Below, piece after piece: positions 15,324 through 37,700 of a stretch of 44,417 nucleotides of DNA (the stretch's first letter is position 1; each line of letters opens with the position of its first letter). Source of the DNA: a virus; IMG/VR virus record IMGVR_UViG_3300021475_000029, positions 1 through 44,417 of that record; one strand, written 5' to 3'. The notes under the pieces were generated by a model. It did not search any database and was not told the origin of the DNA. It worked only from the letters and a program-made list of their open reading frames with translations. The position numbers and the translations under genes were made by a program.

Positions 15324-15974
15324 CTAGGGGGTATGCGCCTGCCTCAGACCAGCGCGTCGGAAGCCCATCAACCCCATAAGCCCGAAGCCTAGCGCCAACA
15401 TCGCCCAAGTGGAAGGCTCGGGCACGCCGGTCGTCAATTGGATCGAGCCGCCAAACGATTGACGCGGCGCGGTGAAGTCCACGGCGAATTGCGTCTCGTC
15501 GGAAGTGAACGTCCCGGCCGCCGCTGACACCGGGCCGAAGGAGCCATCGAGCAGCGCCACTGGGAAGGTGTGCGAAGCCAGCAACCCGCCATCGGCGAAG
15601 GTCGACTCGGTGGTCGGACCGGGATCGTTGGTGAGCCCGTTGACGGTGAAGGTCGAGAGCGTGCCGCCGCGCCCGCTGATCGCGCTTTGCAGGACATCGA
15701 CCGTCAGAATGTGCGAGCCGGTAAAGCCCGCCGCTGCGCTGGCGTCGAGCGTGACGCTCGAGAGGTCGGCGTTGGGCAGGATCGGGCTACCCTGCGCGGC
15801 GATGGTGATGTTGGCGAAGTTGGCGTCGTTGGCGGTGAGCGACGCGGCGCCGGTGGTGATCCCGGTGACGTTGTCGATGAGCGCGCCGTTATCGAACACT
15901 TCGATTTGCAGCGTCGCCTGCGCCGGGGCTACGAGCGCGGCGAGCGCGGCAGTCGCTAGTAGGATTTTACGCAT
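15324..15974 (-). CDS. Exported protein with PEPxxWA-CTERM sorting tail
   Basis: A 216-residue protein. Residues 1-20 form a signal peptide (RKILLATAALAALVAPAQA). The body is beta-rich and Ala/Thr/Gly-rich with no known enzyme motif. Residues 184-207 carry VPEPSTWAML, a hydrophobic helix and a terminal FRR cluster: the PEPxxWA-CTERM signal, recognised in Gram-negative hosts by an exosortase that cuts near PEP and moves the protein to the surface. I chose ATG 15974 because the signal peptide starts there and AAAGGGA precedes it; an upstream start would add eight residues. No exosortase is encoded here, so the host must supply it. It looks like cargo acquired from a bacterium. Confidence 0.85.
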   Translation of the reverse strand: MRKILLATAALAALVAPAQATLQIEVFDNGALIDNVTGITTGAASLTANDANFANITIAAQGSPILPNADLSSVTLDASAAAGFTGSHILTVDVLQSAISGRGGTLSTFTVNGLTNDPGPTTESTFADGGLLASHTFPVALLDGSFGPVSAAAGTFTSDETQFAVDFTAPRQSFGGSIQLTTGVPEPSTWAMLALGFGLMGLMGFRRAGLRQAHTP

Positions 15975-16027
15975 TCTTGTCCCTTTCCAATTACCCAACC
16001 CTTCATCGCACGAATATGCGACAATCG

Positions 16028-16186
16028 TCAGTCACGTTTTCGCTCTCTCAGGCGGTCAGCCAGGTCTTTAGCCATATCGCCCAGCGGCCGCATTTGCCGT
16101 ACGCAATATTTGACCCCGTCCCGGTAGCCCCAGAGATATGAGCCAATCATCGCAACGACGATGATCACTGCGAGGCCGAAGTTCAT
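16028..16186 (-). CDS. Small single-pass membrane protein
   Basis: 52 residues. Residues 2-19 (NFGLAVIIVVAMIGSYLW) form a membrane helix, followed by a basic, helical cytoplasmic tail (MAKDLADRLRERKRD). Its ATG overlaps the helicase stop in an ATGA arrangement, and the ATG and stop are in frame over the whole length. Role unknown. The layout of one membrane helix plus a charged tail is common in phage exclusion or lysis-helper proteins. Confidence 0.6.
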   Translation of the reverse strand: MNFGLAVIIVVAMIGSYLWGYRDGVKYCVRQMRPLGDMAKDLADRLRERKRD

Positions 16187-17595
16187 GCCGCCGGCGCCGC
16201 GGTTTTAAGATTGCGGAAAACCGATTGATACAGCCGCTCTTTGCGCTGCAGCGCCTTGACGATGCGACGATCGAGCGCAGAGCCTGAAAGGTCAATGTAC
16301 GAAACGTACTCGCCTGTCTGGCCGCGGCGATGAATTCGGTCTTCGACCTGGTCGCGGGTATCAGCCGAGTAGGAATTTTCGAAGAAGATCATGGTGCGGC
16401 ACTTGTCCTCCTCGACATTGACGTCGCCAAGCAGGGTGTGGCCGTACTTACTGGCTTCGGCTTGCAGGAGGATGATCCTGCAGCGGGGGTCGTTGTTGAA
16501 CCTGAACTTCTGCTCTTCGACGTCCTCCGGGTTCATCCGGCCACGAATCCAAGCCGGGTCGTAGTCTCTCAGCGCCTTGAACAGGAGATCAAACACAGGC
16601 CGATGACGGTAGACGACGCAGACCTTGCCCTCGACCTCTTCGTCGAGGAGTTGATGGAGCAGCTTGAGCCGGGGATTCTCGCTCGGGCGTACGAGCTCAT
16701 GAACCTCACCGGATGCGTCATATACGAAGCCCGTCTGGATCTGGGCCAGTTTCTCGTATTTAGCGATCGCGACGTCTACGGTGACGACCCCGCGTTCGAT
16801 CTCGACTAGGAACTGGTGCTCCATCTGATTGTATTGGCGCAGTTGTTCGGTCGACATCGCATAGTCGCGGATGGTTGGATCCTTGCGCGGCAAATCCGGA
16901 AGCCAATCCGCCTTCTTGGCCTGGAACACCGCCGGGGCCATGATGCGAGCGAGCACGTCGGCGTTCTTCTCCCGGATCACCTCCTTGTTCTGCCAACCGC
17001 CCATGACGCAGAATGCGCCGCGGAAGGCGTAGAAATTGCGATCGGTGAACAGGTCGATGGCTCTGAGTTGCCCCCAAAGATCATGCGGGCCTTGGGTTTG
17101 CGGGCGGCCGGTTAACAATCGCTTCCAGCAGCAGACCGCGGCCAGGCGATGGATCGCCCTGGTCTGTTTGGATCTGTGCCCTTTGATCTGAATCGATTCG
17201 TCGATCGCCAGATATGTCTTGCCGATCGCCGCCCATTTGACGATCTGGGTCAAGACCGCCGGCATGCGGATCGCTTCGTAGTTGATAATCAGGATCGGCG
17301 GCGAGTTGTGACCCTGGCGGCCAAGAAACCGCTGCGCCTCCTCTTTCTTCGAGGAACGAAAGACATGGGCGTTGAAGCTGAAACCATGTTTCTCAATTTC
17401 GTCGATCCATCCCTGCTTGAATGTATTGGGAGTGACGACGATCATTTGGTCGGCCTGGCCGAGGCCTTGGCACCACGAGTATTCGGTCAACGCGCATAGG
17501 GTCTTGCCCAGTCCCTGCTGCAGAAACCAGCCGACGCCCGGCTTGTCGCGGGCGAAATCGAGCGCGGCGATCTGGACCGGGTCGAGCTTGCTCAT
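16183..17595 (-). CDS. SNF2-type DEAD-like helicase
   Basis: A 470-residue superfamily 2 ATPase. Motifs seen: QQGLGKT (residues 26-32, Walker A), VVTPNTFKQGW (Ia), AIDESIQIK (130-138, motif II as DES), LLTGRP (160-165, motif III) and DRIHRRGQ (419-426, motif VI), with both RecA-like lobes present. It matches the compact phage SNF2-like proteins that remodel or translocate along double-stranded DNA, often replication- or recombination-linked. ATG 17595 overlaps the upstream stop (ATGA); an ATG seven codons upstream is possible. Confidence 0.9.
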   Translation of the reverse strand: MSKLDPVQIAALDFARDKPGVGWFLQQGLGKTLCALTEYSWCQGLGQADQMIVVTPNTFKQGWIDEIEKHGFSFNAHVFRSSKKEEAQRFLGRQGHNSPPILIINYEAIRMPAVLTQIVKWAAIGKTYLAIDESIQIKGHRSKQTRAIHRLAAVCCWKRLLTGRPQTQGPHDLWGQLRAIDLFTDRNFYAFRGAFCVMGGWQNKEVIREKNADVLARIMAPAVFQAKKADWLPDLPRKDPTIRDYAMSTEQLRQYNQMEHQFLVEIERGVVTVDVAIAKYEKLAQIQTGFVYDASGEVHELVRPSENPRLKLLHQLLDEEVEGKVCVVYRHRPVFDLLFKALRDYDPAWIRGRMNPEDVEEQKFRFNNDPRCRIILLQAEASKYGHTLLGDVNVEEDKCRTMIFFENSYSADTRDQVEDRIHRRGQTGEYVSYIDLSGSALDRRIVKALQRKERLYQSVFRNLKTAAPAA

Positions 17596-17861
17596 GTTGG
17601 GGGTCCAAATGGCCAATCTGGATGAGGATAGTCATCAGGAAATGCTTCTGGGCCTTTCCAGATGTGTTCGGCAATATCTTCTAGACACTTAGCTTCGTCT
17701 GTTGCTCCAGCGAGTCGCAACCCTCTAGCTTGATTTTCGATGACACACCCAAGAGCCCCCATCAAATCTTCAGGACCATGTTCTGCAAGGAGTTGCGCCA
17801 AGGTGTTCCAAAGGCGACGGAAATCTTCTGGATCCGCTGGCCTTTCTCGTTCCTTGCTCAT
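17592..17861 (-). CDS. Small helical protein of unknown function
   Basis: 89 residues, predicted mainly helical (EDFRRLWNTLAQLLAEHG, KCLEDIAEHIWKG), ending in a proline-rich tail (PDDYPHPDWPFGPPT). The ATG at 17861 follows a strong GGAGGAAG and overlaps the upstream stop, which rules out the ATG four codons upstream. It sits directly before the SNF2 helicase and may be a partner. No family recognised. Confidence 0.65.
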   Translation of the reverse strand: MSKERERPADPEDFRRLWNTLAQLLAEHGPEDLMGALGCVIENQARGLRLAGATDEAKCLEDIAEHIWKGPEAFPDDYPHPDWPFGPPT

Positions 17862-23291: not shown

Positions 23292-23471
23292 TCAAAATTC
23301 ACGAGCTTCGCACCGTCCATAGATGCTGGTCGATTCGCCCAGCATCATCTCGGCCTCCATGGTCAGGCCGCGCGCTGTGGCTTCGGCGATGTAGCGGTTG
23401 CACAGATCTGAAAACTCATGCCAAAAGCGGTTTTTGAGATCGGTGAGAAAGTCGAGATCCTCTTCGGTCAT
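23292..23471 (-). CDS. Small protein of unknown function
   Basis: 59 residues: MTEEDLDFLTDLKNRFWHEF, then ATARGLTMEAEMMLGESTSI and a CEAREF end. Its ATG overlaps the upstream stop (ATGA), and the frame is intact to 23292. Helical with Glu/Asp clusters. It lies between the coiled-coil protein and the SSB-like gene, so a replication-accessory role is possible. Confidence 0.5.
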   Translation of the reverse strand: MTEEDLDFLTDLKNRFWHEFSDLCNRYIAEATARGLTMEAEMMLGESTSIYGRCEAREF

Positions 23472-23968
23472 CGTTCACGCCTTCGTGTGATCGACACGTA
23501 GGGCGTGGCCGACACCTTGAAGATGTCATCCGGAAGCGATCGCCCGGCCTTGACTTCGTCCTTGGCGAATGCGCCCAGCGTCTGGGCGCTGACGGTTTCG
23601 ACGATCAGGCCTTCGTTGCCGGATCCGCGCAGCCAGTCTAAGCCGCGCTGCTTACTGAGCATTGAGGCCGACCAGCGATCGTTGATCGACACTCGGCCGA
23701 CATCCTTAATCTTAATTGTCTTGACGTTCTGGTTCTGAAACATCGTCGGCAGGAGCTCATACGAAAGCCCCTCCACATGCTTTTGCAGCGCCGTCATCTT
23801 TTCGGATAGCGCCTTGACGGTGTCACGCAACTCGGCAAAATAGGCGACGGCAGTGGGAATATCGTTGTGCTCGACCACTTCGTTGGTGTCTTGCGTCGCC
23901 CGTTCCAACAGGCTGTCGAGCTTCTGGCCGGCGTAGTCGGCGGCAACCTGGGTTTTGAATCGTAGCAT
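23468..23968 (-). CDS. Conserved phage protein with coiled coil, found near SSB-like genes
   Basis: A 166-residue protein. Residues 1-75 form a coiled coil (LDSLLERATQDTNEV, TVKALSEKMTALQKHVEGL). Residues 85-160 are beta-rich and end KVSATPYVSITRRR. I recognise this architecture from uncharacterised phage proteins often encoded beside single-strand-binding proteins. ATG 23968 is chosen for AGAGGA seven bases upstream. Part of the upstream sequence forms nested inverted repeats. Confidence 0.55.
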   Translation of the reverse strand: MLRFKTQVAADYAGQKLDSLLERATQDTNEVVEHNDIPTAVAYFAELRDTVKALSEKMTALQKHVEGLSYELLPTMFQNQNVKTIKIKDVGRVSINDRWSASMLSKQRGLDWLRGSGNEGLIVETVSAQTLGAFAKDEVKAGRSLPDDIFKVSATPYVSITRRRER

Positions 23969-23974
23969 CGTTTG

Positions 23975-24011
23975 GTCCTCTGAGTGGAACCTGCTATGGA
24001 GGTTCGAGGAC
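23975..24011. repeat. Nested inverted repeat covering the 23968 ribosome site
   Basis: Outer arms GTCCTC (23975-23980) and GAGGAC (24006-24011), inner arms GAACCT (23987-23992) and AGGTTC (24000-24005), loop GCTATGG. The outer left arm contains the GAGGA used by the gene at 23968 (minus strand). If the transcript starts before 24011 the ribosome site would be hidden; if it starts near 24005 this is more likely an operator. Confidence 0.6.
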
Positions 24012-24041
24012 TGAATATGTGACAATAAAAGACGAAGTCAA
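24012..24041 (-). promoter_or_regulatory. Putative leftward promoter before 23968
   Basis: Minus-strand TTGACT (24041-24036), an 18-base spacer, and TATTCA (24017-24012). The predicted start of transcription is near 24005, about 37 bases before the ATG at 23968. Assigned by match to the sigma-70 consensus only. Confidence 0.5.
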
Positions 24042-27202: not shown

Positions 27203-27445
27203 CTATCGCTCGCGCGAAACATCCTCCAAAGCGCGCAATTTCGCAATCCCCACTATTCGCTCGTCCGCATCTGGACAGGCGACCCAATCGAGCGTCGGGA
27301 GCACAAGGTTTGTGATTCGTTCCGGTGTGCTGAACCGTTCGCTACGGTGCGGCGCGAGCGCAGTGAAGCACTTCTGCGGTTTGGGGTAGTGCCAGACGCG
27401 ATAACAATGAGCGTCCGCCGGTGTCGCCAACAGAAGTAGAATCAC
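27203..27445 (-). CDS. Small exported protein overlapping the helicase 3' end
   Basis: 80 residues from GTG 27445, in a four-base overlap with the helicase stop (GTGA). Residues 1-12 are a signal-peptide-like stretch ending in ATPADA, with the predicted cut before HCYRVWHYPKPQKC. The rest is mixed with a second CPDADERIVGIAK region. The cysteines could pair outside the cytoplasm. Family unknown. It is the second exported-looking gene of the window besides the PEP-CTERM gene. Confidence 0.55.
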   Translation of the reverse strand: MILLLLATPADAHCYRVWHYPKPQKCFTALAPHRSERFSTPERITNLVLPTLDWVACPDADERIVGIAKLRALEDVSRER

Positions 27446-29982
27446 TCGTCCGGCATAGCATCCGGATCGTAGGGCCCGCGCCGCTGACCCTGTTTTCGCT
27501 GCTTGTTGCCCCGCCATTCCCCGCCGCCTTCTAGCGACATCACGTCGTTGTCGCCCCAGTCGTCAGGAAAGTAGTCCCAATTGTTGGTGATTGGCAAGTT
27601 GTGAGCCTGACCCATCTTCTCGAGCAAGGTGCCGTATTTGAACTTGAATTTGCGCAAGTCGCCACGCACCGTCTCGACCACGCCGGCGCGCTCAAATTCC
27701 ATGATCACCTGAGAAACCTCGACCTTGGTGCGCCGGCCGTCGACGCGAAAGATCGCCTCGCGCAGCATGGCGGTGGAGAACCAGGCAGTGATATCCTTGC
27801 CTTGCAGCACGCGCGCGTCAGCGACAATATCGCGCGCCACTTGTCGCGCCTTCGACATGGTCGAGCGCACCACATTCACATCGTTGCGCGAGGAATGCTG
27901 CAGATCCTCGAGCTCGGCGCGGGTGACCTCGAAATCCATGAAGTAACGCATCAAGTGCTGGCGAAAGACGACGCTCTCGAGCGCCACGACCAGATCGTTA
28001 TAGAAAGGCTTGAGAGTGAGGGCCCAGGTCTGGAATTCAGTGTCCGTCATCCGTTTATTTTCAGCGGTCCAGCTCATGACAAAGAAAAACGCCCGGTCGG
28101 CGGCGTCGGCGGGCGTTAAGCCTATGTCAGGAGAGTTGGAGGCGATCATCAACCGTGATGGGATGTAATAGTCGCGCTGGTCCTGGCGCTTGAATTGGCC
28201 AGAGACATATTCGGCGCGGACGATCTTCTTGATCGTGTTGATCGAGCCGGCCGACTCGAGTCGAACCTCGTCGATGAAAGTGATCAACTTGCCGACGAAG
28301 GGGGTGATGACGAATTTGTTGTCGGAAAGCAGATCAGCTGCGGCGCTGCCGGCCATCGAGCCGTACATGGCGCGCATGAAGCTATCGCCATACTGGGATT
28401 TGCCGATGCCCTGGCCGCCAACGATGATCGGACAAACCTGGGGTTTAACCTCCGGGTGCTGGGCGATCTGAGCCTTGAACTGCTTTAGCCATTTGATCTG
28501 CGCGTCGTTGTCCTGCGTCAGATAACTGAGCATGCGGTCGAGCATGCTGATCGCGCGCGCCATGATCGCCGGGTCGACGGTGGCGATCGGCTTGATGGTG
28601 AAGCCTGGGAAGACGTTGAGGAGCCGGTATTCGTCCGGATGCTGGTCCTCGCCATTGAGGAGCCCGTGGACCGGGCTGTAGCGTAGGATGGACCCAGGTC
28701 TATGGCCGGGGCGGAATTCGCGGTGCTGGACGTCCGAGCGCAGCGAGGATTGGGCGTAGAGGCGGAAGGGGTTGTGCGCCTTCTTGCCGACGACGATCGA
28801 TTCGTTCTGATGGCGCCCGACCAGGTCGTCAAATTTATGAGCGTAAGTCAGCCCTTTGAGCAATTCATCGCGATCGAGATATTCGTGCGCGGTGCGGTCG
28901 AAAATGTACTGATCCGACATCTGCTCGATCGCGTCGATGTCGAGCCCAGCGCGAAACGCTCGCCGGATCCCCACCTTAGCTTGCGGGCTAAATAGAGTTT
29001 CGAGCGCGCCCCAACCCGGCACCGGCGCGGTCGGATTGCGATCGAGCGCGGCCTCGGCGTGGAGAAAAGCGACGCCAAGGTCTTTCTTGGCGCCGAGTCT
29101 CTCTAGAAAGGTCAGTAACTCGCTGACGGTAGCGGAAGAATCGACTGGCGCCCAGCACAAACCCTCGAGGCTCTTGCCGCGGGCGTTGATGTCCTGGCCT
29201 TCACGGACGATGCGGGCAATCCAGCCGCCGAGCGTACGGGTGAGACTCACATCCCAATCCTCGAGCCCGTCGAGGTAGATCTGAACCCAATAGCCAAGCG
29301 TGGCGAAAGCGATCGCACGACAAATAGATTCCATATTTGTCGCAGGCACTGGTCTTGGCTCGAGATCCTCGAGGCCGAGCTCAAGATCGGTCGCCGGCGG
29401 CCTACCCCGCGGTCGCCAGACAATCAGATCGCCGCCGAAGCGCGAGCCTGGCAAGGGCTTCGAATCGCGCCAGATTGCCTTGGCGGTCTTGGTTGGCGGC
29501 GACGAATAGGTGAACTTGGTTTCGACCCAGGCGCCGGCTTTGTCTTTGAAGCCGCGGGGCCAGCGATCGGTCCAGCGTTCGATCGAGGTCGGATTTTCGA
29601 CCTTGAGGATGATCGAGGAGATCGGCTTGTTTAGAGGCCCAAACGATACTCGAGCGTCGAGTTGGCTCGCAAACAGCATAAACCAGACCTCGTCGGGCGC
29701 CTGAAGCTGCAGTTCGATGAAGCCATCGGCCAATCGAACGGCCAGATTGCGCTCGTCGCTCTGCAAGCGCCATTCTTCTAAATTGGTGTCGAGTTGGGGG
29801 GTTGCGAGCGCGTCATCCGGCTTCGGGGAAAGGGACTCTGGCTGAAGCCAAATGACCGGCGCTCTGAGCCGTCTTTTGGTTATGAAATCAATGGTCAAGG
29901 ATCTTTGGAGCTGGGTTGTTTCCCAAGGCATTTGGCGCACCCAAAGAGGAACAGGTTTCGACCCCTTCGAACGCGCTGTCAA
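27442..29982 (-). CDS. Replicative helicase, SF3/D5-like (DUF5906-type)
   Basis: An 846-residue protein. The C-terminal half holds a superfamily 3 ATPase: VGGQGIGKSQ (residues 521-530, Walker A), KLITFIDEV (565-573, Walker B), IASNS (613-617, sensor). The N-terminal 450 residues have no clear primase motifs, so a primase fusion cannot be claimed. Such enzymes drive phage replication forks. Start uncertain: TTG 29982, or ATG 29931 downstream; neither has a good ribosome site. Being the first gene after a terminator suggests its own promoter upstream. Confidence 0.85.
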   Translation of the reverse strand: MTARSKGSKPVPLWVRQMPWETTQLQRSLTIDFITKRRLRAPVIWLQPESLSPKPDDALATPQLDTNLEEWRLQSDERNLAVRLADGFIELQLQAPDEVWFMLFASQLDARVSFGPLNKPISSIILKVENPTSIERWTDRWPRGFKDKAGAWVETKFTYSSPPTKTAKAIWRDSKPLPGSRFGGDLIVWRPRGRPPATDLELGLEDLEPRPVPATNMESICRAIAFATLGYWVQIYLDGLEDWDVSLTRTLGGWIARIVREGQDINARGKSLEGLCWAPVDSSATVSELLTFLERLGAKKDLGVAFLHAEAALDRNPTAPVPGWGALETLFSPQAKVGIRRAFRAGLDIDAIEQMSDQYIFDRTAHEYLDRDELLKGLTYAHKFDDLVGRHQNESIVVGKKAHNPFRLYAQSSLRSDVQHREFRPGHRPGSILRYSPVHGLLNGEDQHPDEYRLLNVFPGFTIKPIATVDPAIMARAISMLDRMLSYLTQDNDAQIKWLKQFKAQIAQHPEVKPQVCPIIVGGQGIGKSQYGDSFMRAMYGSMAGSAAADLLSDNKFVITPFVGKLITFIDEVRLESAGSINTIKKIVRAEYVSGQFKRQDQRDYYIPSRLMIASNSPDIGLTPADAADRAFFFVMSWTAENKRMTDTEFQTWALTLKPFYNDLVVALESVVFRQHLMRYFMDFEVTRAELEDLQHSSRNDVNVVRSTMSKARQVARDIVADARVLQGKDITAWFSTAMLREAIFRVDGRRTKVEVSQVIMEFERAGVVETVRGDLRKFKFKYGTLLEKMGQAHNLPITNNWDYFPDDWGDNDVMSLEGGGEWRGNKQRKQGQRRGPYDPDAMPDE

Positions 29983-30194
29983 ACCGCATTGTGGACAAAA
30001 CTGGATATCGCTATTACATCAATCGCGAGGCTGTTTTGGCGCCTTCAGCCTTGCGGACCATCGCGGGGCCCTCGTGTGGCATCGGGGGCCCCATTTGGCG
30101 AAAAAGGGGAGGCCGAAGCCTCCCCAAGTCTCGCGACGTCGCCTAGCGGTGGGGGATTCGAAATAGAATCCCGCCAAGCGACCTTCTTTAAACA
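29983..30194. promoter_or_regulatory. Intergenic region before the replicative helicase
   Basis: 212 bases with three structures: the terminator at 30101-30125, a GGGATTC/GAATCCC stem (loop of six, near 30151-30170) and a GGGGCCC/GGGCCCC pair further left. No convincing sigma-70 promoter is visible to the left of the terminator. The helicase needs one there, unless readthrough suffices. Confidence 0.45.
30101..30125 (-). terminator. Intrinsic terminator, leftward
   Basis: On the minus strand: GGGGAGGC, loop TTCG, GCCTCCCC, then TTTTT. An eight-pair GC stem with the stable UUCG loop and a U-run is a textbook terminator. It would stop transcripts of the small genes upstream (30195 onward) before the helicase operon. 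Confidence 0.9.
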
Positions 30195-30677
30195 TCACGG
30201 TCCTCGCGCGGCGTCAAGGACTGTAGTTGCGGCCTCCACATATTTCTCCCAGTGCGCGCTTGTCAGATTGATCTGCTTGTCCTCGCCGAATGAATCGAGG
30301 ATCAGCATCCGATCCTCAATCGCGGTGATGCGCCAGGCGCGGCCGGCGATCTGCAGCCAGCAATGATCGTCGCCGAGATCCGGCTCGAAGCATTTGCCGT
30401 CATGTGGAATATCTCGGATCAGCGATCGCGGCGGGAAGATCCCGAGCTTGGCCAAAGCGATAATCGCCTCAACCGCGCCCGCGGGCCGTTTTTTAAGCTT
30501 GCCGTCGACCTCGACCGGGGTGAAATGGAAGCGCCGCCAATCGGACATCGTGGCCTCGAAGGCCGAGTCCTGCGCCAGGTAAAGCGGTAATTTCGGCCAG
30601 CGAAGGACGTGCTCTTCGAAGCGGACCTTCCAATCTGGCTCTTCGAGCTCAATCGCGCCGGCTTCACGAGGGGTCAT
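30195..30677 (-). CDS. Unknown phage protein
   Basis: A 160-residue protein. Features: PREAGAIELEEPDWKVRFEE, FEATMSDWRRFHFTPVEVDG, CFEPDLGDDHCWLQIAGRAW, with a beta-rich C-terminal half. Charged and without membrane segments. The TAA/ATG share one base with the upstream gene. Its end is followed by the terminator, so it is the last gene of the leftward early unit. No family recognised. Confidence 0.6.
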   Translation of the reverse strand: MTPREAGAIELEEPDWKVRFEEHVLRWPKLPLYLAQDSAFEATMSDWRRFHFTPVEVDGKLKKRPAGAVEAIIALAKLGIFPPRSLIRDIPHDGKCFEPDLGDDHCWLQIAGRAWRITAIEDRMLILDSFGEDKQINLTSAHWEKYVEAATTVLDAARGP

Positions 30678-30925: not shown

Positions 30926-31225
30926 CTAAATCCAGGTTTCGACTATTTTGACGTCGTCATTGGGCGATCGGCAGACGCGGACCAGGCCGGCGCCGCGAAA
31001 CACGTCGCGCAGAAGCTCGAGATCGCCGCCTATTCTGTGCTCGGTTGGACCGCCCGGCACCTCATGTCGGCGCGCGACGATGTCGTCTGGGTGATCAAGC
31101 GGGTGGTCATAGATTATCCACAGCGTCAATCTGCCCCGCTGAGCTGCTTCTGTCTGGGTCGCAGCCACCCTCTCGATCAGATCGTCGATATCGCCCATCT
31201 GGGCCCCTTTGGGCATGCCTGACAT
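30926..31225 (-). CDS. Small conserved phage protein of unknown function
   Basis: 99 residues. The ATG at 31225 follows a strong AAGGAGGAG. Motifs: GDIDDLIERVAATQTEAAQR, LTLWIIYDHPLDHPDDIVAR, LELLRDVFRGAGLVRV. The DHPDDIVARR part recurs in phages of alphaproteobacteria as I recall, without a known role. Confidence 0.65.
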   Translation of the reverse strand: MSGMPKGAQMGDIDDLIERVAATQTEAAQRGRLTLWIIYDHPLDHPDDIVARRHEVPGGPTEHRIGGDLELLRDVFRGAGLVRVCRSPNDDVKIVETWI

Positions 31226-31328
31226 AGACTTGCTCCTCCTTGAGCCTTCGCATCAACGCGCGCCTGAGAGGGTCGTCCCAGGCGCGCCTAATGGCTTCGT
31301 TGCGATTGCAAAGCTGTTCTGGACTCAT
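31107..31328 (-). CDS. Small ORF, questionable gene
   Basis: 73 residues starting MSPEQLCNRNEAIRRAWDDP. The first 40 residues look protein-like (basic, NUMOD-like spacing NEAIRRAWDDPLRRALM), but the last third overlaps the 30926 gene by 119 bases in another frame, and no good ribosome site precedes the ATG. It may be a truncated remnant or a chance frame. Confidence 0.3.
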   Translation of the reverse strand: MSPEQLCNRNEAIRRAWDDPLRRALMRRLKEEQVYVRHAQRGPDGRYRRSDREGGCDPDRSSSAGQIDAVDNL

Positions 31329-31340
31329 CCACAGGATGAA

Positions 31341-31715
31341 TCACGAATCAGCCCGTCTGTGAATCCTCGTTCTTCGTTTCGCCTCGCGGGCCATCTCGTC
31401 CTCAACCGCGCGTTGCATCCTTTCAGTCACAAACTGCGCGCGCGCCTCTTCGATTCCCAGTCGCTCGATCAGAGCGTTAGTCTCCTCGGCCAGATTGGTG
31501 CGATTGGAATTCGGATAGCTGTCCGCATCGCCCGTGAGAGCTTTGTAATAGATGGTGTTTTTCGACACTTTGAAGACCTTGGCGAGGATCGGAATCCTAA
31601 CGCCATCGCGCCAAAAAACGTTGATCGCAATCCGCTCTTCGGGGGTCAGACCGTCATCGCGTGAGCGGCGTTTGGTCCTGTAGATCAAGGTGTAATAGTC
31701 CTGGTTCATGGTCAT
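31341..31715 (-). CDS. HTH protein, related to the one at 33788
   Basis: A 124-residue protein with an HTH in the middle (GVRIPILAKVFKVSKNTIYY, then KALTGDADSYPNS) and charged helices on both sides (IERLGIEEARAQFVTERMQ). The same AKVF(K/N)VS core and following basic helix occur in 33788-34447. A transcription factor or replication-initiation accessory. The predicted promoter start lies at the first ATG (31715), so ATG 31709 is possible. Confidence 0.65.
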   Translation of the reverse strand: MTMNQDYYTLIYRTKRRSRDDGLTPEERIAINVFWRDGVRIPILAKVFKVSKNTIYYKALTGDADSYPNSNRTNLAEETNALIERLGIEEARAQFVTERMQRAVEDEMAREAKRRTRIHRRADS

Positions 31716-31719
31716 CGGC

Positions 31720-31749
31720 GTTATATTACCTTTACGGTCCTTTTTGCAA
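31720..31749 (-). promoter_or_regulatory. Putative leftward promoter before 31715
   Basis: Minus-strand TTGCAA (31749-31744), an 18-base spacer, TATAAC (31725-31720). The expected transcription start is near 31713, so the transcript would be leaderless or begin at ATG 31709. The spacer contains AAAGGACCG, resembling the repeat at 32936-32957. Confidence 0.55.
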
Positions 31750-31757
31750 GAGGTTGT

Positions 31758-31976
31758 TCAATTGAGCGGCCTCCCGAAAGCGCGCGCGATGCGCAGAGCT
31801 TCCTCGTTAATAGGCTCAGGAGCCTCTACGGAGGCCGCTGAGGGGGGTCTTTCATTTTTGACTATCTGAGAGCCTCGACGCTCCTCGAGGGCTATAGCGG
31901 CCTCGGCTTCGGCCAGGATCTTGCGATCGATCGCCCGGCGAGCGGCGCCGAATTGTTTTTGCCAGTGATTGCCCAT
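31758..31976 (-). CDS. Small helical basic protein
   Basis: 72 residues (NHWQKQFGAARRAIDRKILA, ALRIARAFGRPLN), starting with an ATG sharing a base with the upstream TAA. Amphipathic helix, acidic middle. No family recognised. Confidence 0.5.
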   Translation of the reverse strand: MGNHWQKQFGAARRAIDRKILAEAEAAIALEERRGSQIVKNERPPSAASVEAPEPINEEALRIARAFGRPLN

Positions 31977-32173
31977 TATCGCTCCTCTGCGTGCTTGCGC
32001 ACCAGACAGGCCAGGAGATGCCCTAGACGCTCGTGCAGCTGGTCGACGGATGCAATCAGGTCGTTGCGGACTCGGCCGCCCATGGGGCAGCGGACGTAGG
32101 TGTCCATGGCGATGGTGATTTGTTTGCAAGTGGCGGCGACCGATTCCGCGATATCGGCGGATGTGACCTTCAT
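31976..32173 (-). CDS. Small helical protein of unknown function
   Basis: 65 residues, four short helices (ADIAESVAATCKQITIAMDT, DLIASVDQLHERLGHLLACL). The ATG is preceded by GAAGGA and by TGCCACA, the same context as the 14080 and 34447 starts. Not recognised. Confidence 0.5.
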   Translation of the reverse strand: MKVTSADIAESVAATCKQITIAMDTYVRCPMGGRVRNDLIASVDQLHERLGHLLACLVRKHAEER

Positions 32174-32185
32174 TGTGGCATTCCT

Positions 32186-32329
32186 TCAGTGTTTGAATGT
32201 GGGATAGGCTTCAATCGCCTTTTGCATCGCGGCCGAGACGACCATGCGCGGGCCGGGCGATGGGTGGCTTGACGCCGCCAGCATGACCAAGAGCAGCGCC
32301 AGCACCGCCAGCGCGACGAATCCAGCCAT
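32186..32329 (-). CDS. Small membrane protein
   Basis: 47 residues from ATG 32329: a membrane helix (AGFVALAVLALLLVMLAAS) and a polar tail ending AMQKAIEAYPTFKH. The same frame is open upstream for 24 more codons (SAQRKRTLVTLSSDG), but its first codon with correct ribosome-site spacing is GTT. Upstream are a near-perfect anti-SD match, a short leader frame and an 11-base stem, so expression control is probable. Function unknown. Confidence 0.5.
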   Translation of the reverse strand: MAGFVALAVLALLLVMLAASSHPSPGPRMVVSAAMQKAIEAYPTFKH

Positions 32330-32369
32330 TTTGTTAGGTGTCGCTTTCTCGGGAAATGTGATCCCGTCG

Positions 32370-32420
32370 CTGCTCAGCGTTACGAGGGTGCGCTTACGCT
32401 GAGCAGAAACCGCATCACCT
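32370..32420 (-). promoter_or_regulatory. Leader frame with hairpin, possible attenuator
   Basis: AAGGAGGTGAT (minus strand, near 32424-32414) is fully complementary to the end of 16S rRNA. It overlaps an ATG (32415) opening an 11-codon frame (MRFLLSVSAPS, stop at 32380). An inverted repeat CTGCTCAGCGT/ACGCTGAGCAG (32370-32380 and 32396-32406) covers the frame. Ribosome position on the leader could open or close this stem before the membrane-protein gene. Confidence 0.45.
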
Positions 32421-32642
32421 CCTTTTGTTGCGAATGGTTGGCCCCCGTTCCTTGTCCGCATCGCGCATGATTTGCATGACCAGACGCGCACGCTGCGGGT
32501 CGCACCGGCGATAGCCAAGGGCGTCGGGCTTGTTGTCGCCTGTGAGCCAGTCGAACAATGTCGGCTTGCGCTTGCCGAAATAGGATTCGTAGGAGGCGTG
32601 GAGACTTGCGGCCTCGACTCCTTTGGCGCGTTGGTCGTTCAT
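32415..32642 (-). CDS. Small protein of unknown function
   Basis: 75 residues: NDQRAKGVEAASLHASYESY, FGKRKPTLFDWLTGDNKP, QRARLVMQIMRDADKERG, ending TIRNKRR. ATGA overlap upstream. Mixed charge, helical. No family recognised. Confidence 0.55.
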   Translation of the reverse strand: MNDQRAKGVEAASLHASYESYFGKRKPTLFDWLTGDNKPDALGYRRCDPQRARLVMQIMRDADKERGPTIRNKRR

Positions 32643-32896
32643 GTCAAAACACCTTCGGTTTGACGGTTGATTTCGATCATCACTTTCGACCAGAACCCCG
32701 AAAGATCGCGGATGGCGCAGTGCTGCGCCCAATCGCGGGCGTTCACTGGCCCGCGCTCTTCGATCAGGGTTTCGGCGGTTTCGCGGATGTCGCGCGCCGC
32801 GCGCTCGCGATTAGCAAGCTCGGGATTCTGGGCATGCGCCCAAGCATCCGCTTTTTGCCGGGCGAAAAATTCACCGCGGGAGAGTTTACGTCTCAT
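32639..32896 (-). CDS. Small helical basic protein
   Basis: 85 residues from ATG 32896 (RRKLSRGEFFARQKADAWAH, ERAARDIRETAETLIEERG, FWSKVMIEINRQTEG). AAAGGTG lies five bases upstream. ATG 32911 is an alternative that follows GCCACA, but then the transcript leader would be only a few bases. Not recognised. Confidence 0.5.
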   Translation of the reverse strand: MRRKLSRGEFFARQKADAWAHAQNPELANRERAARDIRETAETLIEERGPVNARDWAQHCAIRDLSGFWSKVMIEINRQTEGVLT

Positions 32897-32924
32897 GATT
32901 GCACCTTTCATTGTGGCGATTAAC

Positions 32925-32957
32925 GATATAGGACCGTCCTTGACCGGAGTCAAGGAC
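32925..32957 (-). promoter_or_regulatory. Leftward promoter with overlapping operator-like palindrome
   Basis: Minus-strand TTGACT (32953-32948), 17-base spacer, TATATC (32930-32925). A perfect inverted repeat GTCCTTGAC-CGGA-GTCAAGGAC (32936-32957) covers the -35 box and spacer, the place where a repressor dimer would block RNA polymerase. A very similar layout lies at 33744-33777. Confidence 0.7.
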
Positions 32958-32983
32958 TATGATGTTAATTTTTGTGGGTACTT

Positions 32984-33697
32984 TCACCTAACCACAAAGC
33001 CGGATGTGTCGCGCTTGGCCTTGCGGCCTTTGGGCGAGAGGGCGATAACCAGGCCTTGCCTGCCTTCCAGGTGACGCAGGTCCGATTGATCGCCATCGAC
33101 TACGCGCGCGCCAAGGTAGGTCTTAGGGAACGCGCCAGCGAAGACGACTGCGACATTTCCGCCCGCGGCCAGCACCCTGACGCAATCCGCTTCGTTTGTT
33201 TCCGAGCGGGAAAATGTCAGGTGATAATTCGCCGGCAATTGACCGCGGGCATGCGCAAGCGCGCGCTTCGGGGATTTGGTGTAATCGACGAATTGGACGT
33301 CCGGGAAGGCCGCGAACAGATGCGGCGCGAGGCCTTCCCATGCGATGTCGGTGGCGCCGTTCAAGCGAATGCAAAGCTTGAGGCCGGCCTTCGCGGCTTG
33401 CGCGCGGGCGCCGCGCATGTGGCGCTCCATTTCGACCAGGAAGGCTTGACGATCGGTCATGAAGTAGCGCGCCTTGGCGATGCGCGAGCGAATGACCGCG
33501 GGATAGAGCGCGGCGTTGCCTGAGTGCTCGCCTAGGCATAACGCAATGCATCCCTTCGATGCATTGGGGCATAAATTGCCGGCGCCGGCCAACCGATGCG
33601 GGGCCATATAGTTGATGGCGTTGAGCCAGCCGAGCTTTTGCGCCTTGACGGCTTTTGGGTTGTCGACGCTAAAGAAACGCCGGAATCGGTTGGACAT
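32984..33697 (-). CDS. Cys-motif phage protein (Gp88/DUF7227-like), possible Fe-S or TIM-barrel protein
   Basis: A 237-residue protein with LAGAGNLCPNASKGCIALCL (Cys43, Cys50, Cys54) near the start, then HSGNAALYPAVIRSRIAKAR, MTDRQAFLVEMERHM, and alternating strands and helices (KLCIRLNGATDIAWEG, VQFVDYTKSPKR, NYHLTFSRSETN, NVAVVFAGAFP). This resembles phage Gp88-type proteins and, more distantly, radical-SAM-like barrels with a Cys triad. AAGAGGTG precedes the ATG. The function of the family is unknown. Confidence 0.6.
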   Translation of the reverse strand: MSNRFRRFFSVDNPKAVKAQKLGWLNAINYMAPHRLAGAGNLCPNASKGCIALCLGEHSGNAALYPAVIRSRIAKARYFMTDRQAFLVEMERHMRGARAQAAKAGLKLCIRLNGATDIAWEGLAPHLFAAFPDVQFVDYTKSPKRALAHARGQLPANYHLTFSRSETNEADCVRVLAAGGNVAVVFAGAFPKTYLGARVVDGDQSDLRHLEGRQGLVIALSPKGRKAKRDTSGFVVR

Positions 33698-33743
33698 TGA
33701 AAAAGCACCTCTTTTGCAGCGCCGTGGCGACGCGATAGAGGTG

Positions 33744-33777
33744 CATATAGCATGAACTTTGCAGTCCTACAAGGACT
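33744..33777 (-). promoter_or_regulatory. Leftward promoter with AGTCCT palindrome
   Basis: Minus-strand TTGTAG (33772-33767), 17-base spacer, TATATG (33749-33744). The -35 box sits inside the palindrome AGTCCTACAAGGACT (33763-33777). It drives the Cys-motif gene at 33697. Layout matches 32925-32957. Confidence 0.6.
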
Positions 33778-33787
33778 AGTTAGGTGA

Positions 33788-34447
33788 TTATTTTATATCT
33801 GGCCATTCGGGGTGAAGGCGTTGGGAATCGACGCCATTGCCTTCATAGCAACCATCGACCGCGCGCGCCGGCGTGGTCCAGCGTTGAAACGACCAAGGCG
33901 GGCAGGTGTTAGGATGGTCGAGGGTTTGGCCATGGTCGCGCTCGAGCTCGCTCAATTCGCGCCACGCCCAACCTTGCGGCGCCTCGGCGTCGGTTCGCGG
34001 GTCTGGGTCGCCTTTCATCCGCAGCTGCACAATGCAGGTGATGAAGCGGCCGCCATAGGCTTCGAAGGTGAAGGGCTTATTTCCCCATCGACCGGCGCGG
34101 GTGTCGGGTCCGTGCATGCGGGCCCGGTCTTCGTCGGTTTCCACGCCAAGGCGGAAGCGTTGGAACTTTGTCGCAATTTCGTCGGTGAAATATTTATCGC
34201 CGAAGGCCTCGCGGCCGAGTTTGTTCCATTCGTCGACCACGTCCTGATAGCGATCGCTGGTATTTCGGCAATTCGCCAAGGCGCTAATGCCGCCGGATGA
34301 GACGTTGAAGACCTTGGCGACCAGGCTTTGAGGGAAGCCGCGCTCACAGGCAAAAAACGCCGCGCACTTGTTGTGAAATGTGAGCCGCTTAGTCATCCTT
34401 GGAAGTTCGCGAATTAATTCGTCAAGCTTTTCAGTGGCTTCAGACAT
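33788..34447 (-). CDS. HTH protein with C-terminal unknown domain
   Basis: A 219-residue protein. Residues about 25-60 form an HTH (FFACERGFPQSLVAKVFNVSSG, then GISALANCRNTSDRYQDVV) related to 31341-31715. The C-terminal half (TDEDRARMHGPDTRAGRWGN, GGRFITCIVQLRM, GWAWRELSELERDHGQ) has no family I recognise. The ATG follows GGGAGG and GCCACA. Probably DNA-binding, possibly linked to the intergenic repeats to its right. Confidence 0.6.
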   Translation of the reverse strand: MSEATEKLDELIRELPRMTKRLTFHNKCAAFFACERGFPQSLVAKVFNVSSGGISALANCRNTSDRYQDVVDEWNKLGREAFGDKYFTDEIATKFQRFRLGVETDEDRARMHGPDTRAGRWGNKPFTFEAYGGRFITCIVQLRMKGDPDPRTDAEAPQGWAWRELSELERDHGQTLDHPNTCPPWSFQRWTTPARAVDGCYEGNGVDSQRLHPEWPDIK

Positions 34448-34480
34448 TGTGGCCTTTCCTCCCATTGGGTTAACTTACGG

Positions 34481-34509
34481 AGGATATTTTGAATTGAGTG
34501 AGCGTGCAA
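34481..34509 (-). promoter_or_regulatory. Putative leftward promoter before 34447
   Basis: Minus-strand TTGCAC (34509-34504), 17-base spacer, TATCCT (34486-34481), with a start of transcription about 25-30 bases before the ATG. Assigned by consensus match only. Confidence 0.5.
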
Positions 34510-34531
34510 GCGCAATCTGAATGAATAGAGT

Positions 34532-34666
34532 GAAGTTACATAGCAGGTAGTCGCCACATACGCGCGACCCTTTGACCGGCAAAAGGCATATTTACAGTTC
34601 GAATGGTGTGGAATTATTGCCATTGCAAGGGTCATATGGTTGTGGGAACGACTTCCTATGTAACTT
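34532..34666. repeat. 12-base inverted repeat flanking 111 AT-rich bases
   Basis: GAAGTTACATAG (34532-34543) and CTATGTAACTTC (34655-34666) are exact complements. Between them lie further short repeats (TTCGAATG, CCATTGCAAGGGTCATATGG). The spacing is too long for a hairpin terminator. It could hold a replication origin or bind a dimer at two sites. Confidence 0.6.
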
Positions 34667-34776
34667 CGAATGCCATACATGGATTGACACTTAGATTCTT
34701 CACGTTAGGGAATGGTCCTCGCTTGCGCTCGGAGGCCAAACTGGCATTGGCGGGCGCCGCGCCGCGCTCAATCGGG

Positions 34777-34815
34777 GCAAAAATAAACCCCGCTCGAAAG
34801 CGGGGCTATTTTGGT
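34777..34815. terminator. Bidirectional intrinsic terminator
   Basis: Stem CCCCGCT-CGAA-AGCGGGG (34788-34805). Read leftward it is followed by TTTATTTTT; read rightward by CTATTTTGG. The leftward form is the stronger and ends the transcript of the small gene at 34832-35014. Confidence 0.85.
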
Positions 34816-34831
34816 TTATCGCAAAGGCGTT

Positions 34832-35014
34832 TTAGACGTATCGGCGCTGATACCAATCGAGCGCCAAGAGGTGTGAGGCGCGCCAGACGGCGCGTAGATC
34901 GCTCAGTTGGGCGTGTTGGGTGACCAGGCCCCAAGACTTGGCGCAAGCGTCACGGAAATAGTAGGACCGGACGCTGCGAAAGGCGCGTCGATCGATAGCT
35001 GGTGTGGGAATCAT
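34832..35014 (-). CDS. Small protein of unknown function
   Basis: 60 residues: IPTPAIDRRAFRSVRSYYFR, CAKSWGLVTQHAQLSDL, AVWRASHLLALDWYQRRYV. Basic and aromatic-rich. GGAGC precedes the ATG. It is framed by its own promoter and terminator, so it is a single-gene unit, the first of the leftward region. Such lone early genes often encode host-takeover proteins, but nothing specific is visible. Confidence 0.6.
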   Translation of the reverse strand: MIPTPAIDRRAFRSVRSYYFRDACAKSWGLVTQHAQLSDLRAVWRASHLLALDWYQRRYV

Positions 35015-35049
35015 GGTGGCGTTGCTCCGGGCGCGACCATCGCGCAGCC

Positions 35050-35078
35050 ACAACATAGGCGCAGCTCGAGCAATTGTC
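35050..35078 (-). promoter_or_regulatory. Strong leftward sigma-70 promoter before 35014
   Basis: Minus-strand TTGACA (35078-35073), exactly 17 bases, TATGTT (35055-35050). Transcription would start near 35043, about 29 bases before the ATG. The AGTCCTAA core of the adjoining palindrome resembles the other AGTCCT sites. Confidence 0.75.
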
Positions 35079-35099
35079 AACTTTGTAGTCCTAAACAAA
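35078..35099. repeat. ACTTTGT/ACAAAGT palindrome next to the -35 box
   Basis: Seven-base arms (35078-35084, 35093-35099) around AGTCCTAA. The block AACTTTG(T/C)AGTCCTA is shared with 33757-33771, so both may be sites for one regulator. Confidence 0.6.
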
Positions 35100-35188
35100 G
35101 TGCGATTGTTGTCTGGCTGGGGGACCAGATGGGGGACCAGCGCCAGCTCGATACACGCAACTCCAGCATTCTCTAGGCGTTCCAGGCA

Positions 35189-35219
35189 GAGGTTAGCGGA
35201 GTACATCTCCGCTAACCTC
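35189..35219. repeat. Perfect 13-base hairpin
   Basis: GAGGTTAGCGGAG, loop TACAT, CTCCGCTAACCTC. No T-run on either strand, so it is not an intrinsic terminator. It sits upstream of the rightward packaging promoter. Confidence 0.75.
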
Positions 35220-35342
35220 GCGAACGCGCGTGCGCTGCGCAACCATGCTGGATGGTCGCCAGGCGCGAAGCGCCTATTGACGATCGCGTTGGACCCTCCC
35301 CATGGGGGCCCTCTTTAGGCATCGGGACCGGAGTCCCGGAGC

Positions 35343-35372
35343 TTGACGCGATGACCAAAACGTATCTACAAT
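35343..35372 (+). promoter_or_regulatory. Rightward promoter before the packaging operon
   Basis: TTGACG (35343-35348), 18-base spacer, TACAAT (35367-35372). The predicted start falls at or next to the ATG at 35379, so the HNH message would be leaderless or the start used lies further on. It is the only convincing rightward promoter before the packaging genes. Confidence 0.65.
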
Positions 35373-35378
35373 ACTCAA

Positions 35379-35912
35379 ATGACCATATGTCCGAGATGTC
35401 AAAACCTATTTAACCCAAGTAAAACGCAAATCTATTGTTCAGAATACTGTCGTAGGAAGGCGCAGAAGCTTCGCAACCGGCGTCGTCATGCGCATCCTCG
35501 GCCTCCCAAGCCAAGGCCGATCGCCAGGCCGCGTTGGCGTCGACCCAAGATTTGGGCTTATAAGCCGACGCTCGAGGAGCGTTTGCTTGCGCTTTCCATT
35601 CCCGAGCCCAATTCTGGTTGCCTTCTTTGGCTCGGCAAGGTCTCAAAGAAGGGTTACGCTGTCATCTGGCTCGAAGGCCGTCATCGGGTCGCCAATCGCG
35701 CGGCTTTTGAAGTTTGGAAGGGTCCGATCCCGGCGGGCAAGATGGTTTGTCACCATTGCGACATCCCCTCGTGCATCGAGCCTAATCACTTGTATGCTGG
35801 GACGGCGAAGAGCAACCACGACGACATGGTCAAACGCGGACGACATAAGTTTCCGCCGCCCAGGCCCAGGAAGCCAAAGCCGCTGCCGAAATTTGCGGGA
35901 GAGGGTATTTGA
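35379..35912 (+). CDS. HNH endonuclease with N-terminal zinc ribbon, beside terminase
   Basis: A 177-residue protein. Residues 1-30 hold a zinc ribbon (CPRCQNLFN, YCSEYCRRKAQ). A basic linker follows. Residues about 75-160 form an HNH_3 domain: CLLWLGKVSKKGYA, HRVANRAAFEVWKG, VCHHCDIPSCIEPNHLYAG with the metal-binding His/Asn/His, and a DDMVKRGRHK end. HNH proteins directly upstream of terminase genes take part in DNA packaging in several phages, for example HK97 gp74; a homing role is the alternative. Confidence 0.85.
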   Translation: MTICPRCQNLFNPSKTQIYCSEYCRRKAQKLRNRRRHAHPRPPKPRPIARPRWRRPKIWAYKPTLEERLLALSIPEPNSGCLLWLGKVSKKGYAVIWLEGRHRVANRAAFEVWKGPIPAGKMVCHHCDIPSCIEPNHLYAGTAKSNHDDMVKRGRHKFPPPRPRKPKPLPKFAGEGI

Positions 35913-36421
35913 CCGATCATCCTCATCTCACCCTCGTCGGCCATTCTAATTCTCCGGAGCATGATCAAGAATTTGAGCCTTTACCGTACTACCCATGGGA
36001 GGAACGTCCTCCGACCCTCCCTATTGACGCCGAGGAAGCCGCGACCGCCATTCATCTCGGCCATAATCTCCCGGCTGCCGCCCTCCTGCTCAAAGTCCCG
36101 GAGTTCCGTCTCCAGCGCCTGGTTCGCGCCAGCCCACGCTTACAGCGCATCCTCGATGAATCCTTTGCTCTCGCGCTCAACCGCGCCGTCGCCGTGCCGA
36201 TCGACACGCTGTTCAACCCCCTCGCCGACCAACGCGCGAAAGAATGGGCGTCCAAGCTGCTGCTCTCCTCCCGGCTTGCCCAAGGCCATCCGCTCTCGCC
36301 GGCCCCCACCCAAAGCGCCCAGTCGGTTTCGCTCACCCAGAGCCCGGTTTCTAAAACCATCACTTTCCGCTGGCGCACCGATGCAGACGACGCCCTCGCG
36401 TCGGATGCTGAGAATGACTGA
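35909..36421 (+). CDS. Putative small terminase subunit
   Basis: A 170-residue protein starting TTG in a TTGA overlap with the HNH stop, after GGGAGAGGG. The central helical part (EEAATAIHLGHNLPAAALLL, KVPEFRLQRLVRASPRLQRI) looks like the DNA-binding domain of small terminases. N- and C-terminal regions are Pro/Ser-rich. Its place before the large subunit supports the role; sequence alone is weak. Confidence 0.6.
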   Translation: MTDHPHLTLVGHSNSPEHDQEFEPLPYYPWEERPPTLPIDAEEAATAIHLGHNLPAAALLLKVPEFRLQRLVRASPRLQRILDESFALALNRAVAVPIDTLFNPLADQRAKEWASKLLLSSRLAQGHPLSPAPTQSAQSVSLTQSPVSKTITFRWRTDADDALASDAEND

Positions 36422-37700
36422 AACCGAGCAGGAGATCGTCCTCCCCTACAAGCCCCGCAAGCACTTCATTCCGCTTCATCAAAGTAAAAAGCGATGGAAA
36501 TTTGCGGTTTGCCATCGTCGTGCAGGGAAAACAGTGGCGTTAGCCAACACGCTCATTGTTGCTGCGCTTGAGAATAAAAGAACAACACCCCTACCGAGGT
36601 ATGCTTACATTGGCCCGAGCTTCGATCAAACCAAGGATTTGGTCTGGAGCTACCTCAAGCAATACACCGCCAACATTCCCGGCGTCCGTCACCTCGAAGG
36701 CGAACTCACCGTCATTTTCCCTGGAGGAGCTACAATCCGCCTTTACGGCGGGGCGCTGGCTTACGAGCGTATGCGCGGAATCTACCTCGATGGCGCCGTG
36801 CTCGATGAATATCCTCTGCTTGCTCCGCAAGCTTACACCTCGGTCGTCCGGCCATGCTTGGCTGACTACAGGGGTTTCGCCATCGTCAGCGGCACCTCCG
36901 CCGGCGACGATCACTTCCACAAACTCAAGCTCAAGGCGGAAGACGATCCTGACTGGGACATTTTCGACATCAAGATCACCGACACCGGAACCGACGCCCT
37001 CTCCCTCGAAGAGGTCGAGGAGATGCGCAAGGACATGAGCGTCGACGAGTTCGCGCGCGAAATGCTGAACTCCTTCGACGCGCCGGTCGAGGGCGCTTAT
37101 TACGCCGAGGCGCTCAACGATCTGCAGCTCGCCGGCCGCATCTGCAAAGTCAGCCCCGACCTCAACACCGACGTTATCACCGCCTGGGATCTAGGCATTC
37201 GGCATCTGCAGGCAGTCTGGCTGTTCCAGCTCGCCGGCCGCGAAGTCCACTGGATCGACTATATCGAAGGCACAGGCAAGAAGCTCAGCCACTATACCGA
37301 CCTGCTCGGGCTGAAGGCCCGCGCCGGAGGCTATCGCTTCCGCGCACATCTTCTGCCCCATGACGTAGAGGTGCGCGAGCTCTCGACGGGACATAGCCGC
37401 AAGCATGAATTGTTTGGCCTCCTCGCCGAGCCGGTCCTGACCGTCCCGAATCACAACACCGAGGACGGCATCACCGCCACCCGCGGCGTGCTCGGCGTCT
37501 CCTGGTTCGACCAAGACGCGTGTCGACGCGGATTGGCCCGCCTCCGTTCCTACCGGCGCGGCAAATCCGGCGTCGCCGTCGCCGACGAAGCCGAAGACGC
37601 GGCGGACGCTTTCCGGACAGGCTGTGTGGGGATAGCCCTCGTCAGTTCGATGCGGCATTCTGGTCAACGCCTCCGGAGGCGAATTCGAGGACTGGTGTGA
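36414..37700 (+). CDS. Terminase large subunit
   Basis: A 428-residue packaging motor. ATPase: CHRRAGKT (residues 33-40, Walker A), AVLDEY (128-133, Walker B), SGTSAG (159-164, coupling). Nuclease: AWDLG with Asp259, HDVEVREL with Asp317, and DEAEDAADAF around 391-400, the RNase H-like acidic triad. The ATG at 36414 overlaps the small subunit by eight bases (the longer open frame upstream is a shadow of that gene). The packaging strategy cannot be told from this. Confidence 0.95.
   Translation: MTETEQEIVLPYKPRKHFIPLHQSKKRWKFAVCHRRAGKTVALANTLIVAALENKRTTPLPRYAYIGPSFDQTKDLVWSYLKQYTANIPGVRHLEGELTVIFPGGATIRLYGGALAYERMRGIYLDGAVLDEYPLLAPQAYTSVVRPCLADYRGFAIVSGTSAGDDHFHKLKLKAEDDPDWDIFDIKITDTGTDALSLEEVEEMRKDMSVDEFAREMLNSFDAPVEGAYYAEALNDLQLAGRICKVSPDLNTDVITAWDLGIRHLQAVWLFQLAGREVHWIDYIEGTGKKLSHYTDLLGLKARAGGYRFRAHLLPHDVEVRELSTGHSRKHELFGLLAEPVLTVPNHNTEDGITATRGVLGVSWFDQDACRRGLARLRSYRRGKSGVAVADEAEDAADAFRTGCVGIALVSSMRHSGQRLRRRIRGLV

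Follow-up and report, generated by a model that had tools for sequence, protein, structure and literature searches.

Lambda-type repressors of the XRE class occupy tandem operators over the -35 and -10 elements and also regulate the genes that encode them. In the Cluster A mycobacteriophages, which are temperate, immunity repressors act at operators and stoperators (PMC9283540). One phage repressor there serves many short sites across the genome, early promoters included. A similar outline is described here for a window of 44417 bases, a complete IMG/VR virus record (IMGVR_UViG_3300021475_000029; G000 below, other G and L numbers denoting relatives or loci). A short box, [T/A]AGGACT[A/G], lies on several of its leftward early promoters, and among relatives the box occurs together with the gene of a small helix-turn-helix (HTH) protein, HTH-S. 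Circuits of this kind are familiar from phages; this box and protein family appear to be undescribed, and a literature search of open-licence papers found no description of the box or of gene control in the phage group.

As with the lambda-type repressors, the boxes overlap the -35 and -10 of several early promoters, here judged from sequence. In contrast to them, only 5 of 18 group records contain HTH_3-class genes, and HTH-S weakly matches a Hin/homeodomain-like HTH. A tyrosine integrase (PF00589), a mark of temperate phages, was found in none of the 18 group records searched; serine recombinases and other routes to lysogeny were outside that search, and the records may be incomplete. This also distinguishes the group from Cluster A, where stoperators in addition stop elongation, whereas the boxes here are on promoters. 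Stoperator-type systems have sites away from promoters and a repressor that has an HTH and a stoperator domain and binds as a monomer; here the box is enriched only around promoters, and the HTH-S model shows one HTH plus helices.

The closest isolate found was Ochrobactrum phage vB_OspP_OH (MT028492; prim-pol 31% and TerL 52% identical), by description a virulent podovirus (PMC7139368); that paper's main text does not contain the word 'promoter'. Like the window it carries a relative of a second HTH protein, HTH-L (p08 there), and palindromes near several early promoters, but its repeat, TGTGACA...TGTCACA, lies upstream of the -35 and HTH-S was not found in it. The phages of the window's group are best read as distant kin of vB_OspP_OH, integrase-lacking, from soil and uncultured. 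No DNA-level match to 31000-35600 was found among 50,697 phage records; relatives were collected via prim-pol and GP88. Early-type genes of the window run leftward from ~35 kb to ~14 kb and late genes rightward. Neither Rfam families nor tRNAs were found in the window, so an RNA element is not indicated.

The box is enriched at promoters of one phage group

The initial annotation described four leftward promoters (A to D, Table 1) sharing a AGTCCTTG palindrome and placed them probably under one regulator. Promoters A, B and C were found where it had put them, with 17-base spacers. Promoter A carries AGTCCTTG at 32951-32958 and a perfect inverted repeat with 9-bp arms, GTCCTTGAC-TCCG-GTCAAGGAC, at 32936-32957. 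At B, AGTCCTTGTAGGACT (AGTCC-TTGTA-GGACT) spans 33763-33777. Promoter C has the best hexamers of the four and was also recovered by an automated promoter scan; its box, TAGGACTACAAAGTT, overlaps the -35, extends just upstream of it and has 14 of 15 bases in common with B, and a 22-bp inverted repeat occupies 35080-35101. All three are kept in G001 (at 25042, 24223 and 22747, respectively), and the register of C (-12) is identical in G007, L130 and L138. At D the shared sequence is present as described, but the promoter is weak, with poor hexamers (TTGCAA, separated by 15 bases from TAATAT or by 17 from ATATAA). The D core is identical in G001, though the DNA preceding it differs. Two further sites, E and F, lie outside the annotated interval; F, the weakest of the sites, is followed by a terminator-like hairpin and is also present in G001.

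Taken by itself, the window shows only a moderate excess of the box over chance. It has 4 copies of AGTCCTTG where 0.96 would be expected, a count reached in 2 of 100 shuffles, and 6 inverted box pairs where a Markov-1 model gives a mean of 1.14 (P = 0.003, 300 simulations). The strong evidence comes from the relatives, where the motif search proposed earlier bore out enrichment at promoters. In promoter-like windows (TTGACW-N16..18-TA....) of six relatives (G003, G007, G008, G010, G011, L124), AGGACT/AGTCCT was counted 16 times against 0.29 expected and ranked second of 2080 hexamers, behind TTGACA; L124 is not independent, since it was fetched by a box-containing pattern, the other five having come from GP88. 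The same hexamer was counted 0 times against 0.26 expected in seven GP88/prim-pol records (G002, G004, G009, G012, G013, G015, G016).

A profile scan of viral contigs for HTH-S gave 23 loci; 11 were used, and 12 were set aside because they nearly duplicated others or were known before. The scan patterns demanded the conserved HTH-S helix, whose conservation is thus partly by construction; the box played no part in the selection. In these 11 loci the box was counted 19 times against 0.34 expected (rank 3 of 2078 hexamers). Of 60 loci chosen at first, 50 were analysed. Records with and without HTH-S were compared. Promoter-like sites carried the box in 45/105 cases in the 19 records with HTH-S and in 1/278 in the 33 records without it (Fisher p = 4e-28, relatedness ignored), and 17 of the 19 had a box promoter. 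The set of 33 was made up of 27 GP88 loci (of 80), five GP88 phage records including G016, whose HTH-S is diverged, and vB_OspP_OH; G011, a fragment, was placed in neither group. Six of seven control hexamers showed no difference between the groups, the seventh, GACAGT, being found at 12/105 and 9/278 sites. Shifting the windows by 60 to 150 bases abolished the box enrichment, which is thus limited to promoter surroundings.

A reverse scan of viral contigs was carried out with the operator pattern alone, TTGACWNGGACN6TAGGACTA. It returned 11 stretches, and all of them belong to the phage group of the window, as indicated by HTH-S in six and by the group TerL in five. In these five (L153, L154, L156, L157, G011), all of them fragments (5.5 to 13.7 kb), TerL is 71 to 78% identical (73% in G011); HTH-S was not found in the available part of any of them. 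A looser pattern returned L160-L162, three instances of one AT-rich sequence that has one box and lacks HTH-S and that was counted outside the group.

Alignment of 55 boxes gave [T/A]AGGACT[A/G] as the conserved unit. They were drawn from 48 of 56 sites, eight being dropped as coding or doubtful, together with boxes near the edge of the context; the box was the search seed, so the core is near-invariant by construction, while flanks and registers are free of this effect. Boxes overlap the -35, spacer or -10 of sigma-70-type promoters in fixed registers. Measured from the first base of the -35, forward boxes (n=38) start at +18 in 15 cases, the commonest position, abutting the -10, at +6 in six and at -12 in five; 17 of the 55 boxes are reversed. 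A +6/+18 pair forms a 12-bp direct repeat, as in TTGACAAGGACTGCGAATAGGACTATGTAG of G011. The boxes are mostly in direct orientation, often two of them 12 bp apart, and palindromes are merely one arrangement; the single box thus replaces the AGTCCTTG palindrome as the conserved unit.

HTH-S as a candidate repressor and other explanations

Four HTH proteins of the window had been put forward as regulators, those encoded at 18586, 19040, 31341 and 33788. HTH-S, the one at 31341, fits best. That at 19040 is of the XRE type, a class scarce in the group, and that at 18586 had no match among 16 relative records or loci searched. The gene at 33788, encoding HTH-L, suits the role less well: many relatives have it, but phages that share the box differ strongly in its recognition helix.

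Every box-bearing record of adequate length retains HTH-S. In its recognition helix, SKNTIYYK, SKNT was invariant in the first 8/8 orthologues, with some variation among 20. In G016 the helix has diverged (TPNAIRY), and this record has no box and carries the repeat CGCATGATA instead. An AlphaFold2 model from 20 sequences (mean predicted local distance difference test score 82, predicted template modelling score 0.73) shows a helix-turn-helix (helices 25-36, 41-48 and 52-60), with a helical C-terminus. Searched with this model, Foldseek returned nothing at E <= 0.001. The best VIA-align match was the DNA-binding domain of Hin recombinase (1ijw_C; Z 5.2, 45 residues, root-mean-square deviation 2.4), below the distinctive range and too low to claim kinship of the modelled fold with Hin. 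Pfam matches (HTH_23/HTH_38) were weak, the best PDB sequence profile (2lvs_A, E 0.013) was not relied on, and tblastn against phage isolates gave no match. The library entry matched by HTH-S, phrog_7170 (HTH DNA binding protein), is given neither a function nor a binding site. Two very similar HTH-S copies are seen near the record ends of G002 (L106 at 210-551, L151 at 46791-47132), a possible duplication.

Co-occurrence with the box, helix conservation and autoregulatory placement make HTH-S the most likely binder, and we consider it somewhat probable that it is an autoregulating repressor at box operators of several early units. We infer binding, repression and timing as follows. HTH-S would bind [T/A]AGGACT[A/G] over the strong sigma-70-type promoters that drive leftward early genes, thereby blocking the host RNA polymerase. 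The 12-bp distance within box pairs, close to one helical turn, suggests two subunits bound side by side. Repression is suggested by boxes inside the polymerase footprint of otherwise good promoters, and feedback by boxes at the promoter of HTH-S itself; as these are present in about half of the records, HTH-S would limit its own synthesis. Several early units would then be switched off in a timed manner, when enough HTH-S has accumulated.

Several observations weigh against this reading. In G002 and L145 the helix of HTH-S is unchanged, yet none of the eight promoters in each has the exact box, only a GTCCTTGACA variant. A full box promoter directly upstream of HTH-S was not seen in 10 of the 19 records (G002, G003, G010, L130, L145, L146, L147, L148 and L150; in G007 there is a box without a -35). 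The box of promoter C lies partly upstream of the -35, a position also open to an activator. HTH-L is as widespread as HTH-S, and the structure model of HTH-S has weak matches only. Moreover, all records with HTH-S belong to a single related group, and joint inheritance alone may account for the pairing of box and gene.

It is improbable, in our estimate, that the boxes are operators of HTH-L, a distant paralogue of HTH-S, or of both paralogues jointly. A direct search of viral contigs for HTH-L gave no relatives; a profile search later recovered them in G000, G001, G002, G003, G007, G008, G010, L124, G016 and vB_OspP_OH. In G003, G007 and G008 HTH-L follows GP88 with no strong box promoter seen between them, so a box promoter may drive HTH-L. 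Its helix, however, differs strongly even between G000 and G001, in which A, B and C are nearly the same, and vB_OspP_OH and G016 have HTH-L without the box.

To a host transcription factor, the phages borrowing the regulon of a probably alphaproteobacterial host, we assign an equally small likelihood. Box-bearing phages may share a host group, and relatives with other repeats may have other hosts. Against this, the strict two-box promoter pattern had two matches in genome contigs, one in an AGGACT repeat run and the other in an AT-rich Saprospiraceae metagenome-assembled genome, neither resembling the promoter class. The alphaproteobacterial LexA motif is GTTC-N7-GTTC; the LexA regulon was set aside on the aligned box core, which has no GTTC, and no LexA-box scan was made. 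PraR was considered for the TTGCAA hexamer in D, this being the PraR/PhrR consensus of alphaproteobacteria (PMC4149787); it does not fit the box and was rejected, the core of the 55 boxes being AGGACT.

Less probable still is that the boxes serve an activator, or extend the promoter for a polymerase modified by the phage. The commonest register, which abuts the -10, and the boxes upstream of the -35 in promoter C, G007 and L138 speak for such a role. Many hexamers, however, are near consensus with 17-base spacers, and the boxes occur in both orientations and in several registers of the footprint, as is typical for repressor sites. Chance, or shared ancestry of promoter DNA with no regulator involved, is consistent with the modest box counts in the window but very improbable, as the same box, its registers preserved, is found at different genes of a single genome and from one record to another, and the contrast between records with and without HTH-S contradicts it.

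Extent of the regulon and other features of the window

GP88 is the direct target of a box promoter in eight records (G000, G001, G003, G007, G010, G011, L130, L148). HTH-S lies downstream of a box in 9 of 19 (G000, G001, G008, L132, L138, L140, L142, L144, L152), less certainly in L152, where the -35 is unclear. For the gene at 23468, AGTCCT follows right after the -10 in G000, G001, G003, G004, G008 and L138; in G003, G007 and G008 the targets include genes of small membrane-like proteins. The annotated idea of a shared regulator is well supported by the fixed registers of the box in relatives; its restriction to four units is too narrow, since the regulon takes in at least E, the membrane-like genes of relatives and others.

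Table 1. Box-bearing sites, their downstream genes and other genes of the window
Feature	Position	Strand	Description
Promoter A with operator	32925-32958	minus	AGTCC-TTGACT-17-TATATC; TTGACT 32953-32948, TATATC 32930-32925
85-aa gene	32639-32896	minus	downstream of promoter A
Promoter B with operator	33744-33777	minus	AGTCC-TTGTAG-17-TATATG; TTGTAG 33772-33767, TATATG 33749-33744; upstream of GP88 gene
GP88 family gene	32984-33697	minus	PF17338, E 1.6e-37; target of promoter B
Promoter C with operator	35052-35101	minus	TTGACA (35080-35075), 17 bases, TATGTT (to 35052)
60-aa gene	34832-35014	minus	downstream of promoter C; terminator-like hairpin after gene, 34786-34807
Promoter D (weak hexamers)	31721-31749	minus	AAAGGACCG; directly upstream of HTH-S gene; putative autoregulatory site
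HTH-S	31341-31715	minus	124 aa; candidate regulator; phrog_7170 match residues 14-99, E 2.8e-6
Promoter E	24007-24041	minus	TTGACT...CACATAT, then directly AGTCCT after -10; upstream of gene 23468-23968
166-aa gene	23468-23968	minus	phrog_2378, function unassigned there; downstream of promoter E
Candidate site F	30187-30222	minus	AGTCCTTGACGCCGCGCGAGGACCG, i.e. AGTCCTTGAC...GAGGAC; A-like spacing; within 3' end of gene 30195-30677
HTH-L	33788-34465	minus	225 aa; distant paralogue of HTH-S; variable recognition helix; rival candidate regulator
Prim-pol	27442-29982		early-type leftward set
Helicase	16183-17616		early-type leftward set
TerL	35961-37700		late rightward set

Three other features were observed in the window. 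A long imperfect inverted repeat (34532-34667), with 51-nt arms that are 71% complementary and 34 apart, lies in the gap separating HTH-L from the gene of promoter C. At 15177-15226 there is a perfect 15-bp inverted repeat, TTTTCGTGAGACGAC, whose loop holds TAGGACTA, with a third TCACGAAAA downstream; a repressor-like gene (14268-15068), which matches phrog_3910/phrog_4, has this repeat ~110 bases upstream. The protein encoded on the minus strand at 15324-15998 (224 aa; also in G001) begins with a signal-like stretch, and its C-terminus, VPEPSTWAMLALGFGLMGLMGFRR, is one that we take to resemble a PEP-CTERM sorting signal, unusual in a phage.

Private operator words in related phages

The word AGGACT of the window has counterparts in GGGCATWATGYCC of G015, CGCATGATA of G016 and TGTGACA...TGTCACA of vB_OspP_OH; all three counterparts were seen by eye and counted, with no enrichment statistic. 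In G015 (L115), which has no HTH-S, repeated GGGCATWATGYCC-like sites (31318-31397 and 33282) surround two promoters, one of them that of GP88. In vB_OspP_OH (L129), palindromes of the form TGYGAC...GYCRCA stand near 360, 797, 932, 2969, 4186 and 5226, close to early promoters. We offer as a tentative idea, on the unlikely side, that related integrase-lacking podophages carry private operator words on several of their early promoters and that these changed together with the phage HTH proteins.

The box and HTH-S form a testable cis/trans pair for an uncultured soil phage group. If HTH-S does bind the box, the pair would supply compact repressor/operator parts for alphaproteobacteria, and the private operators of related phages would allow a direct test of how regulator and operator co-evolve outside lysogeny. 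Private words, if real, would amount to an immunity-like specificity code in lytic phages, timing early genes and possibly silencing incoming relatives.

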